From Taibaiella lutea (lineage in GTDB: Bacteria > Bacteroidota > Bacteroidia > Chitinophagales > Chitinophagaceae): 64,000 nt of DNA. The DNA is taken from positions 495,688 to 559,687 of the forward strand of contig NZ_VWSH01000003.1 in NCBI RefSeq assembly GCF_008629695.1, given 5' to 3'. Shown in pieces: positions 37,066 through 41,001 of the stretch; positions within the stretch are counted from its first letter, which is position 1, and each line of letters opens with the position of its first letter. The translations under genes and the position numbers were made by a program. The notes under the pieces are model-generated. The model was not told the DNA's origin, did no database searches, and worked only from the letters and a program-made list of their open reading frames with translations.

Positions 37066-37473
37066 CTATTTCCCTTCCATCAGCTTCTCCAACCTTGCCA
37101 TCATTTCATCCTTCTCCTTCAGCATCCTTTCGTATAAAGCGATCTTTTCTTCATGTAGTTTAATGAGTGCATCAATCGGATGAAAAACAGGATAGTGATT
37201 CACTACTGCACCATTATCATTATTGGTAATGGTATTTGCTATAATATTGATTGCCTGTTGTTCATCAAAATTTTGAAAAGCTTCCACAGGTATTTTCAGA
37301 ACGGAGGCTATTTGTTGCAGCAGCGGAGGGTCGATGTTTTCCTTCTGCTCCAGTAAGGAGATTTTCTTTTGGTTCCAGTCTTCGCCCAGGTCATAGGCCA
37401 AAGCTTCCTGTTTAATGCCCAGCATTTCCCTGAAACGTTTCACATTGCGGCCTTCGTGTATTTTGTTGTCCAT
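37066..37473 (-). CDS. XRE-type helix-turn-helix regulator
   Basis: 135 aa from the ATG at 37473 (MDNKIHEGRN); an ATG at 37491 adds six residues. The HTH lies at about 10-60: NVKRFREMLGIKQEALAYDLG and WNQKKISLLEQKENIDPPLLQQIASVLKIPVEAF. The C-terminal 35 residues form a charged coiled coil (ALIKLHEEKIALYERMLKEKDEMMARLEKLM), suggesting dimerisation. It is divergent from the zeta toxin gene across 268 bp and could regulate it or itself. Copy A of the dispersed repeat lies just past its stop. Confidence 0.85.
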   Translation of the reverse strand: MDNKIHEGRNVKRFREMLGIKQEALAYDLGEDWNQKKISLLEQKENIDPPLLQQIASVLKIPVEAFQNFDEQQAINIIANTITNNDNGAVVNHYPVFHPIDALIKLHEEKIALYERMLKEKDEMMARLEKLMEGK

Positions 37474-37728
37474 ATGATACTGTATTTTCAAAACTCAAAT
37501 GTAAGTTTTCCCTGTATAAACAGCTTATATAAAAGTAGGTAAATTATCGGTTTCGATAACTGAAATATCTTGTTTGTCCTGAACCAGCAGCCTGTAGATG
37601 TGTCTGTTAAAGCAAGCAAAGGTTTTCGTACAGGGCTGACTGTATACTTATGCGAGAAAGGCAATACCCAAACCATTGTGCGATATGGAGCAAAAAACGT
37701 CTTCCAAAAACCTAACAATAATAATTTG

Positions 37729-37737
37729 TAAATTTGC
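37729..37737 (+). promoter_or_regulatory. -7 box abutting the zeta toxin start
   Basis: TAAATTTGC at 37729-37737, 4 nt before the ATG at 37742. Predicts a leaderless transcript. Confidence 0.65.
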
Positions 37738-37741
37738 GAAT

Positions 37742-38326
37742 ATGAATGACAAAAAACTTTACGTAATTGCAGGTTGCAACGGAGCGGGTAAAACTACTGC
37801 TTCGTTTACGATTTTACCTGAAATTTTGGATTGTAAAGAATTTGTCAATGCAGACGAAATAGCAAAAGGATTATCTCCTTTTCAACCCGAAAAGGTAGCA
37901 TTTGAAGCGGGGCGAATAATGTTGAACAGAATCAATGAACTGCTTTCCGAGAATCAAAATTTTGCATTTGAAACAACTCTGTCAACCAAGAGTTATAAAA
38001 ACAAAATCATTGAAGCGAAAGAAAAGGGCTATCGGGTAATATTACTATTCTTTTGGCTTCAAAATATTGAATTGGCTAAAGAGCGTGTGAAAGTAAGAGT
38101 TTCCGAAGGTGGACACAATATTGAACCGCAAGTTATTGAAAGAAGATACATCCGAGGAATTAAGAATTTATTCGACATTTATCTTCCGATTGTTAACGGA
38201 GCTTTTATTTTTGACAACTCGGAAGCAAAGCACGAACTTTTAGCTGATAAGCAAATTGATGCTTCGCTAAATATTATAAACGTAGAAAAGTTTGACCTTT
38301 TGAAAAATTATTATGACAACAACTGA
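37742..38326 (+). CDS. zeta toxin family protein (AAA/kinase fold)
   Basis: 194 aa from the ATG at 37742; in-frame ATGs at 37676 and 37685 lie upstream of the -7 box. Walker A GCNGAGKTT is at 11-19; FVNADEIAKGL near 35-45, FAFETTLS near 76-83, RVKVRVSEGGHNIEPQVIERRY near 112-133 and the FDIYLP/FDNS blocks match zeta toxin/UDP-GlcNAc kinase-like proteins. Family knowledge: zeta toxins phosphorylate UDP-N-acetylglucosamine and block wall synthesis; small ones of this type may have other targets. The stop overlaps a 50-aa ORF that may be its partner. Confidence 0.9.
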   Translation: MNDKKLYVIAGCNGAGKTTASFTILPEILDCKEFVNADEIAKGLSPFQPEKVAFEAGRIMLNRINELLSENQNFAFETTLSTKSYKNKIIEAKEKGYRVILLFFWLQNIELAKERVKVRVSEGGHNIEPQVIERRYIRGIKNLFDIYLPIVNGAFIFDNSEAKHELLADKQIDASLNIINVEKFDLLKNYYDNN

Positions 38327-38921: not shown

Positions 38922-39836
38922 TTATTTAGCCATTTTAGTCCATAGAAAATTAGATAAGATATTAATTACTATTCCTATAATAACTGTAACAAAAACAAAT
39001 CCCAATATTAAATTCCTTCGCTTAATCATTTTATTATGTTTTTCAATGTAGTCTCCCCAGAAAAACAACTTATTTGGAAAATATTTTGCAATAACACTTT
39101 CGATACTATCTGTAAAAAAAAATAACATCATAGATGGGATCATAAACCATACAAGGTACTTTAGTTTTCCTAAAAGTGTATTATTAATATCTCCCTCCAT
39201 CATTCTCACTTTTTCTATTTTGACAATAGAACTTAAAACATCAACATTCTGATGTTGCTGAATTTTCTTTTCTAAATTATTAAGTAATGTCAATAAATTT
39301 TGATTTTTATGCCCTAAGGAGGAAAAGCTGGCGAAAAGTATGATTGATAAAAAGATAAATAATGGAGCAGAAATAAAATGGGAGACTTTTAAGCCAACAA
39401 AATTTGATTTAACAATTTTGTTTATTCGATCATCAAATAAAGAGCTACTAACAAGTGCCCAGTCTCTATTTTCAGATTTTATTTTATACCGAATACTGTT
39501 CAGTTCTTTACTTTTTTCAGAAGATGTATTGGAAAATGTAAGCTTAATTTCTTCATTTGGTATATCACCGATAGCTTCTACAGTTAATGTTACAATTTCA
39601 GATGGTCCAATATTCTCGTAGTTAATAATATATTCTAGACTTGTAGTCTCAATTACCTGACCGTTTGCATTTTCAATTATATAAGTTATTTTTAAATTTT
39701 TATTGCTTTCTGTCTTCTCAAATTGTTCATTAATCACTTCAATTATTCTCCGAAGCTCTTGTTCATTTAATAAGAAACCAGTATCAATACTTTTAGACGA
39801 CTGTGTATAGCTTTTTTCCATTGAATTATTTTTCAA
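38922..39836 (-). CDS. membrane protein with three helices, unknown function
   Basis: 304 aa (start at 39836; the ATG five codons later also fits). The N-terminal 150 residues are soluble and beta-rich (ITYIIENANGQVIETTSLEYI, TLTVEAIGDIPNEEIKLTFS). Then come hydrophobic helices at about 154-170, 228-245 and 277-297, with the coiled-coil-like stretch NLLTLLNNLEKKIQQHQNVDV between the first two. No family recognised. The 43-bp alternating repeat array lies 112-323 bp upstream of its start, so the array may be part of its control region. Strongly AT-rich, which hints at acquired DNA. Confidence 0.6.
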   Translation of the reverse strand: MKNNSMEKSYTQSSKSIDTGFLLNEQELRRIIEVINEQFEKTESNKNLKITYIIENANGQVIETTSLEYIINYENIGPSEIVTLTVEAIGDIPNEEIKLTFSNTSSEKSKELNSIRYKIKSENRDWALVSSSLFDDRINKIVKSNFVGLKVSHFISAPLFIFLSIILFASFSSLGHKNQNLLTLLNNLEKKIQQHQNVDVLSSIVKIEKVRMMEGDINNTLLGKLKYLVWFMIPSMMLFFFTDSIESVIAKYFPNKLFFWGDYIEKHNKMIKRRNLILGFVFVTVIIGIVINILSNFLWTKMAK

Positions 39837-39947
39837 AATTGAAGATTTCTATTATTAACATTCTTATCCTCAAATATACAAATATCATCTTATGAAACAA
39901 CAAAATATGAAAGGTTACTTTTGTTAGCTAATACAATAGAATGATTT

Positions 39948-40159
39948 CCTACTAATTTACGAGGTACTACATCGTCCAGAACGAGGTTAACCTGCTGATT
40001 TACGAACCTATACCTCGTGGTTCACGAGGTAATCCTACTAATTCACGAGGTAACACCTCGTACGGAACGAGGTTAACCTGCTGATTTACGAACCTATACC
40101 TCGTGGTTTACGAGGTAATCCTACTAATTCACGAGGTAACACCTCGTACGGAACGAGGT
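39948..40159. repeat. alternating 43-bp tandem array (five monomers, ABABA)
   Basis: Monomers start at 39948 (A), 39991 (B), 40034 (A), 40077 (B) and 40120 (A, truncated to 40 bp). A and B differ from each other, but same-type copies are nearly identical, giving an 86-bp higher-order unit. ACGAGGT occurs perfectly at 39959, 39981, 40024, 40045, 40067, 40110, 40131 and 40153; its complement ACCTCGT at 40012, 40055, 40098 and 40141. Heptamers pair into palindromes with 3- or 5-nt spacers. Neither 43 nor 86 is a multiple of three, so it is not coding. Confidence 0.92.
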
Positions 40160-40181
40160 GCAGCCGGAAAATACAATGCAC

Positions 40182-40207
40182 AAAAAAACCGGCAAATGCC
40201 GGTTTTC
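40182..40207 (-). terminator. terminator of the 169-aa gene
   Basis: AAAACCGGCA (40185-40194) pairs with TGCCGGTTTT (40197-40206) across AA. On the minus strand it ends in a run of seven T. Confidence 0.85.
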
Positions 40208-40235
40208 AAATGTAAACGCCCCGAATTTATGCTGA

Positions 40236-40745
40236 TTATTGCGGCAATTCGCTGCCTGGCTCACCTGCTTCAAGCTCCGGGTCTTCTTCTTCCATCACCT
40301 TTTTAAAGCGTGCGTTATAATCATCCAGTTCTTTGATGGCTTCGTCCAGATCGCCGTCATATTTGCGCGCACTTTGCAGGCTGTCGCCGAACTTGTCCAC
40401 ATAGCCCATAATATCCTTACCCAGAGCTTTGTCGGTATCATCCAGTGCCTCGCACAATTTTTGAGCGGCTATCCGGTACGCTCTCAACACCTGCAGGTAA
40501 GCTACCCTTTCTTTAAGGTCTTTTGCATTGTCGTTTTTTGCAAGCTTTTCATCATACTGCGTGGCAAGCCTGGAAACGATGTCCACCAGCCCCAGCCTTG
40601 ACGATCCTACCACACGCATTTTCTTGCGCGCATCATTGCTAAGCGATACTTTAAAAGGATCCAGGTTGTTAATCAGCCCATTAATCTGGTTTATTGCATC
40701 TTCTAATTCGTCGGAAGGTGCGAACGATCTTACCATTAAATTCAT
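40236..40745 (-). CDS. helical cytoplasmic protein, unknown function
   Basis: 169 aa (start at 40745 or the ATG three codons on). Predicted all-helical: DELEDAINQINGLINNL, GLVDIVSRLATQYDEKLAK, ERVAYLQVLRAYRIAAQKLCEAL split by short loops, then an acidic tail EEEDPELEAGEPGSELPQ. No signal or membrane segment and no motif recognised. It has its own terminator. G+C is higher than in its left-hand neighbours. Confidence 0.6.
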   Translation of the reverse strand: MNLMVRSFAPSDELEDAINQINGLINNLDPFKVSLSNDARKKMRVVGSSRLGLVDIVSRLATQYDEKLAKNDNAKDLKERVAYLQVLRAYRIAAQKLCEALDDTDKALGKDIMGYVDKFGDSLQSARKYDGDLDEAIKELDDYNARFKKVMEEEDPELEAGEPGSELPQ

Positions 40746-41001
40746 AATAGTGAATTTTAAAGTTTATAAAAATATGTATAACCTTATATGTGCAATAATC
40801 GTGCCAAACTCATGGCAGAAAAGAAAAAAATTTAAAATTTCTTCAGTTATTTAATGTGAACGATAAAAATGTAACATGATAAATCGCAGACAATACAAAG
40901 AACACACGCAAAGGCAGCAGAGAAGCAGGATTCCTCATTTTGACTTTGCTGTTCTTTGCGCAAAACGTTGCGGCCTCTGTGGTAAAAGTTCATTACGCAA
41001 A
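40746..41001. repeat. intergenic region with degenerate inverted repeat
   Basis: No gene seen. CGCAAAGGCAGCA (40907-40919) and TGCTGTTCTTTGCG (40947-40960) form an imperfect inverted pair. The words CTTTGCG and GCGGCCTCTGTGG recall intergenic repeat families common in Bacteroidota. Confidence 0.5.

Follow-up and report, generated by a model that had tools for sequence, protein, structure and literature searches.

In partition sites and operator arrays, dyad sites spaced by two helical turns stand in phase next to the gene for a small binding protein. Genes are also paired with repeats in the RAYT/REP systems where, in the part of the published account that we draw on (PMC2817692), a gene has its own adjoining palindromic repeats as well as cognate intergenic copies, and a genome holds several such gene/repeat pairs. 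Another group, the intergenic repeats of the heptamer TAACTGA, is described in its abstract (PMC4679880) as patchily distributed over Beggiatoaceae, Cyanobacteria and some Bacteroidetes.

Here we analysed a stretch of 64,000 nucleotides from Taibaiella lutea (the window), in which a tandem array stands behind a gene for a 169-aa protein. This array is real, is not a product of chance or specific to its locus, and is an entry point to a gene-array system. Our main reading, to which we give a probability of roughly 45%, is that the array serves the adjoining 169-aa protein as a cognate target site made up of multiple units, with gene, terminator-like hairpin and phased array forming one module.

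The tandem array and its surroundings

The array covers positions 39947..40159 of the window, has no assigned strand and consists of five 43-bp monomers in the order ABABA, which amount to ten imperfect 19-bp palindromes. Self-comparison of 39947-40159, on which TRF was also run, gave an identity of 0.94 at a lag of 86 bp versus 0.65 at 43 bp, in agreement with the first-pass annotation, which had described monomers that recur almost unchanged every 86 bp; same-type monomers are alike at 35-42 of 43 positions and A and B at 27-28. At lags of 21 and 22 bp the identity is 0.42 and 0.45. The heptamer counts and the spacing of 43 and 21-22 bp given in that annotation were likewise reproduced: the + strand holds eight copies of ACGAGGT, at steps of 22, 43, 21, 22, 43, 21 and 22 bp, and four of ACCTCGT, at steps of 43, 43 and 43 bp, with the variant ACGAACC at 40002 and 40088. 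Opposed heptamers form palindromes with 5-nt (ACCTCGT-N5-ACGAGGT) and 3-nt (ACGAGGT-N3-ACCTCGT) centres, as had been noted. On both strands of the whole 64-kb window the heptamer occurs 14 times, 12 of them inside the array, compared with 3.1 expected from shuffles.

In the orientation of the 169-aa gene, the palindrome unit reads ACCTCGT-N5-ACGAGGT, and the 2-3 bp between units produce the steps of 21 and 22 bp; the smaller natural unit of the array is thus the 19-bp imperfect palindrome plus 2-3 nt. The satellite-like higher order proposed for the array is real, but its period is not fixed, since sister arrays at other loci repeat every 65 bp (three units) or 43 bp (two units), and the ABABA order is probably one product of multi-unit tandem duplication. 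Structure prediction of both strands, which had been suggested as a check, gave strong RNA folds for each (z about -7), because the units are palindromic. Rfam had no match in the array, and its six weak matches elsewhere in 39000-41000 were all below the gathering score.

The gene for the 169-aa protein, which represents in this window the array-linked family described below, lies on the minus strand at 40236..40745, with its 3' end facing the array from a distance of 77 bp, and encodes an acidic product (pI 4.7). Between its stop codon and the array, at 40182..40206 on the same strand, is a hairpin followed by a T run that we read as terminator-like from sequence and fold; a scan for the terminator consensus did not flag it. 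The opposite side of the array is occupied by another minus-strand gene, at 38922..39836, for a predicted 304-aa membrane protein; this gene was not found next to the other arrays examined. The suggestion that the array binds protein fits its phased, dyad-symmetric units. As a locus-specific operator of the 304-aa gene, however, it can be dismissed, because related arrays stand beside unrelated genes and because it is the family of the 169-aa gene, on the array's other flank, whose members recur as neighbours across the phylum.

At 37676-38326, some 1.6 kb past the array, the window also encodes a P-loop protein that resembles zeta-toxin kinases (Pfam PF06414). Near it, the product of a small gene at 37066-37491 has no Pfam match but looks like a helix-turn-helix protein; the two are a possible toxin-antitoxin pair.

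Related arrays in T. lutea and other genomes

BLAST searches of the T. lutea genome (4.27 Mb, 5 contigs) with the window array recovered sister arrays at C3:327317-327577, with a 65-bp higher order, and at C2:608705-608963, with a 43-bp higher order. A degenerate one lies at about C1:576.04-576.22 kb. The array is not unique, but its family occupies only four places in the genome. Among 59 genomes searched, T. lutea included, the one other match was in Taibaiella soli (Chitinophagaceae), and the unit pattern was present in the same two of 394 genomes of the taxonomic family. A class-wide search for the exact palindrome matched 10 of 295 genomes, T. lutea with 13 sites and the other nine with one or two each; the matching loci L020-L029 each hold a single palindrome and no array. 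An empty site for array L139 was not seen, the adjacent gene being different in those congeners with a readable flank.

To place these arrays among the tandem repeats of the genome, we surveyed non-coding tandem arrays of at least 90 bp in 40 stretches of 20 kb (800 kb). Periods of 20-23 bp or multiples thereof accounted for 18 of 20 arrays, which fall into several unrelated sequence families; the limits of this class were fixed after the first arrays had been viewed, and the 18 include one array based on 7 bp (L167:13957), one of 41 bp (L203:10818) and three with a multiple period only (L167:17478, L204 and L207). One such array, 7-bp based, was found in 300 kb of three congeners, none in 346 kb (19 stretches) of other relatives, one of which (G033) later proved to have a family member, and the T. 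soli sample of 100 kb contained one. A further 400 kb, drawn at random from ten other gene-positive genomes, yielded three arrays of the class and two others, so the abundance in T. lutea is not typical. A coding origin was ruled out for many arrays by periods such as 43, 65, 85 and 106 bp together with stop codons; several exact 21-bp arrays have an open frame, but a short one.

Solo arrays of T. lutea lie between ordinary genes in every orientation, and most gene-linked arrays have look-alikes among them. The window array matches L139 and L140, the array of L146 resembles L140, that of L256 resembles L211, that of L218 resembles L164 and L178, and that of L319 resembles L214:5867, while the array of L288 matches L207 only weakly. 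No family gene was found for six array groups of the genome (L203/L214, L160/L201, L174/L202, L165, L171 and L167/L204). At two loci, L203:2407-3153 and L201:6974-7687, we observed helical-looking proteins of about 240 aa whose genes are preceded, at distances of 144 and 274 bp, by a 21-bp array; the two are mutually dissimilar by phmmer, and they may be the partners of array families that have no gene of the 169-aa type. In addition, arrays with units of 7 bp (such as ATAGTGA and CAACTGT), or of 14 bp as 2 x 7, occur at L167:13957-14104, L182:12387-12613 and L144:8803-8830, and repeats of this heptamer type may form a separate class in the genomes concerned.

The protein family and the arrays behind its genes

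An initial search with the 169-aa protein returned two paralogues in T. lutea, 62% and 33% identical, the latter with an array of different sequence (65-bp higher order) 95 bp past its stop codon. Three T. soli arrays had been found by their sequence, and one of them (L143) lies directly behind a homologue; the 18-kb stretches with L142 and L144 contain no family gene. A further T. soli homologue, a chance find, sits beside the sole such array of the random T. soli stretches (L195). A five-member profile then located 22 places in 15 of 394 genomes of the taxonomic family, and a 20-member profile found members in 30 of 395 genomes of a phylum sample, T. lutea being counted in both. The latter profile yielded 7 members in T. 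lutea and 12 in T. soli, the largest number of paralogues per genome, and none in three congeners.

Members are about 160 aa long and were predicted to be all helical, by two models of two sequences at a poor pLDDT of 55. Their median pI is 5.3, with 68 of 94 below 6 and 15 of 94 above 8. No family in Pfam, NCBIfam, PHROGs or PADLOC was matched convincingly or by more than one member, the best match being that of a single member to NCBIfam TraP (E 0.0003). The PDB offered no convincing match (best E 0.095), and no known DNA-binding domain was found. Searches of plasmids and phages, with one T. soli query each, and of IMG/VR found no relative of the family.

We quantified the linkage of gene and array in 95 distinct members from 43 genomes, leaving out one weak place (G468) that failed the profile, by testing the 600 bp before and the 600 bp after the gene for self-similarity at all lags between 10 and 50 (z>=6). 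The 3' flanks, which were of full length in 86 of the 95 members and shortened by contig ends in the others, passed in 54 of 95 cases, with best lags of 21 (25 flanks), 42 (10), 22 (9), 43 (6), 44 (2) and 45 bp (1); the remaining flank, at lag 10, is an N run. At any lag, 5 of 95 5' flanks passed, two through N runs and the others at 16, 22 and 43 bp. When the scan was restricted to lags of 20-23 and 41-45, the 3' side retained 53 of 95 (step of 5) or 51 of 95 (step of 15) and the 5' side 2 of 95. When all genes were scanned in the same way, hits followed 19 of 614 in T. lutea and 5 of 122 in T. soli, where three of the stretches had been selected because they held arrays. The congeners had 2 hits behind 234 genes and the other relatives none behind 235, and none of 170 shuffled flanks passed. 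Within T. lutea, six of the seven members have an array on their 3' side, the exception being the intact member L320, which has no clear array (z 3.1). Overall, 42-44 of 95 members have no clear 3' array; some of these are at contig ends or broken, and others are intact. The congeners combine the absence of family members with one array of this kind in 300 kb.

The anatomy of the arrays was examined in 61 cases with z>=5 from 28 genomes. They start a median of 97 bp past the stop codon and, over the 600 bp read, have a median length of 6.7 units. By a rule of our own, a terminator-like hairpin lies between stop codon and array in 40 of 58 cases, compared with 13 of 58 in a reversed-sequence control. 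Dyad symmetry was significant in 37 of 61 arrays, that of the window among them, and not in the other 24 (60 column permutations each, p<=0.05); within T. lutea only the window array passes this test, and those of L146, L256, L218, L288 and L319 fail. Words such as GAGGT, CACCT and TCGGAG, chosen from a ranked list and uncorrected, occur in more arrays than expected, and an AGGT/ACCT core, chosen after the data had been seen, is present at least four times in 23 of 61 arrays from 16 genomes, versus 3.9 expected. Similarity between arrays follows similarity between the adjoining proteins (Mantel r 0.32, 0 of 2000 permutations), including between genomes at less than 45% protein identity (r 0.20, 0 of 2000), a divergence at which neutral DNA is presumably saturated.

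Interpretation and comparison with described systems

Recognition at the level of DNA is supported by the two-turn phasing, by the symmetry of many arrays, by the common core and by the co-variation of protein and array, from which we infer that the protein may recognise its array. In such a module the protein, probably dimeric or in a larger helical assembly and possibly together with a partner, would bind the array units, which with a spacing of two helical turns would share one face of the DNA, and would assemble cooperatively on its own array and on solo copies. New copies of the array would arise at other sites and lengthen as single units or groups of several were duplicated in tandem, giving rise to the 43-, 65- and 86-bp higher orders, and the solo arrays would serve as further target sites of the protein. 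The cellular role of the assembly might be chromosome organisation or merely its own spread. Several observations pull in the other direction. An acidic family is unusual for a direct DNA binder and, like the lack of a known DNA-binding domain, counts against recognition, which is weakened further by the poor structure models, by the members without arrays and by the non-symmetric arrays, among them five of the six gene-linked ones in T. lutea. Linked inheritance could yield part of the correlation between protein and array. The array families of T. lutea that have no family gene, and the low abundance of arrays in other gene-positive genomes, also count against the module.

Among the alternatives, the strongest, although we consider it unlikely, is a REP/BIME-like dispersed repeat, which would be non-autonomous, have its source in the array next to the gene, be copied with the help of the protein or an unseen enzyme and have no cellular role. 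The logic agrees with that of RAYT/REP as far as the cited account describes it (PMC2817692), and would suit the clear solo look-alikes at unrelated sites of five of the six gene-linked arrays in T. lutea (the sixth, L288, being weak), the patchy distribution of the family (15 of 394 and 30 of 395 genomes) and the end flank AAATCGGTTA that two sister arrays have in common. No Y1 transposase or other enzyme domain was detected in 20 members scanned, however, and the 12 Y1 matches in T. lutea and four relatives are accompanied by other hairpins, 0 of 12 having the 19-bp motif in their flanks; the window family is also confined to its four places, and no insertion with an empty site was seen.

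A clearly less probable alternative holds that the array is transcribed and processed to guide or effector RNAs, hairpins of about 21 or 43 nt that the adjoining protein would bind, in the manner of TIGR-Tas stem-loop arrays. The position of the array beside a gene for a small helical protein, the palindromic units with their folds at z about -7 on both strands and a weak covariation of arms within arrays (24 arrays, Stouffer 4.3, uncorrected for the relatedness of units) are consistent with such RNAs. Whole units repeat in the arrays that we laid out, with no variable spacers, and a terminator-like hairpin separates gene from array in 40 of 58 cases, both of which argue against this alternative, as do the absence of AT skew, the weak GC skew, the lack of a Nop domain and the mostly acidic character of the protein. 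Promoters directed into the arrays showed no excess either (2 of 58 versus 4.4 expected; 6 of 57 versus 4.0), as judged by the -7 motif of Bacteroidota. Least probable by far, and disfavoured, is an ordinary minisatellite shaped by slippage and unequal exchange, with incidental symmetry and period and a chance neighbour. Tandem duplication does predict the higher-order periods that differ between loci, but a minisatellite sits poorly with a 21-22 bp period class that extends over unrelated sequences (18 of 20 arrays), with one-sided linkage to a single protein family in arrays at z>=5 from 28 genomes, and with dyad symmetry and a common core.

Extended beyond this locus, the module reading would describe a hitherto undescribed two-part system of Bacteroidota, to which we assign slightly less than an even chance: rapidly diversifying, mostly acidic helical proteins with cognate 21-22 bp arrays behind terminators and further cognate arrays across the chromosome. 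The distinct array alphabets of the paralogues would then constitute either parallel, insulated networks that mark or organise loci, or a new class of selfish repeat. If the protein does recognise the adjoining array, a protein and a DNA (or RNA) repeat would be matched sequence-specifically in a new way, and naturally occurring pairs of differing specificity could be compared. It could explain why this chromosome has many 21-bp satellites and the sampled congeners almost none, and would offer a bacterial model for the joint evolution of satellite-like arrays and partner proteins. A search of titles and the beginnings of abstracts, which covered few subscription journals, found no description of this gene-array pairing.

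Of the described systems, the TAACTGA repeats share with these arrays their abundance as intergenic tandem repeats and a patchy distribution that includes Bacteroidetes (PMC4679880, abstract). They differ in their 7-bp unit, in having one sequence and in lying mostly near start codons in the type genome, and the abstract names no partner gene alongside them (PMC4679880).

A search across GTDB for ACCT-N11-AGGT pairs (76 stretches) returned comparable arrays in MAGs of Verrucomicrobia, Spirochaetaceae, Planctomycetaceae and Myxococcales. We do not claim these as the same system, because the search pattern imposed their geometry and the family profile found no member in those loci. Within this material, long ACCTTTT-N5-AAAAGGT arrays with 2-3 nt between units, a geometry shared with the window array but again imposed by the pattern, occur at several sites per MAG, namely L055, L056, L088, L106 and L110 of Verrucomicrobia UBA3783, L063, L080 and L114 of Spirochaetaceae Pc512_bin84, and L062 and L074 of Planctomycetaceae; in UBA3783, end motifs such as GGCAGTTCAAAAAGG and GGCATTCTAATGCGG are common to several of these arrays.

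The trait of binding-site arrays, dyad units in helical phase, characterises the window array and 37 of the 61 arrays overall, at a period of 21-22 bp. Unlike partition and operator arrays, the present ones are chromosomal, with several paralogous pairs per genome and a mostly acidic family that has no known DNA-binding domain, and no ParA-like match was found among the window proteins scanned.

As in TIGR-Tas, to the extent of the account cited (PMC12045711), a repeat or stem-loop array adjoins the gene of a partner protein and its sequence varies by locus. In contrast to that account, there is no Nop match here (E<=0.01, 20 members), there are no variable spacers, and a terminator-like hairpin precedes the array in many cases (PMC12045711). 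Membership in TIGR-Tas thus fails on both the Nop-domain protein and the variable spacers.

Membership in RAYT/REP fails as well, since no Y1_Tnp match was obtained in 20 members and the Y1 genes of T. lutea, three congeners and T. soli are accompanied by other hairpins. In T. lutea itself, L136 and L138 hold divergent Y1-transposase-like genes with open frames of 184 and 157 aa, the second below the Pfam cut-off, near which lie hairpins such as GGTTGGTGTC..CACCAACC and TGGTGGGTGTC..CACCCACCA; these loci may constitute a REP-like system of their own in this genome.

The arrays also differ from RAYT/REP in forming long tandem series of 21-22 bp units on the 3' side (51 of 95, versus 2 of 95 on the 5' side) and not on both flanks, and in the few copies of the window family. 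Palindromic, regularly spaced repeats with cognate copies, the trait of REP-type elements, are found in the window family, while palindromy is non-significant in the five other gene-linked arrays of T. lutea. In common with RAYT/REP-BIME, as far as the source describes them, these systems have adjoining repeats, cognate copies elsewhere and several differing gene/repeat pairs per genome, a repeat sequence that tracks the protein sequence, and regularly spaced clusters (PMC2817692).

Taken together, we read these comparisons as pointing to a gene-array system that is absent from the databases and literature searched, with a module logic like that of RAYT/REP without its transposase. The family fails the tests for RAYT and TIGR-Tas on their defining proteins, and it therefore resembles such gene-repeat pairs without being a member of either.
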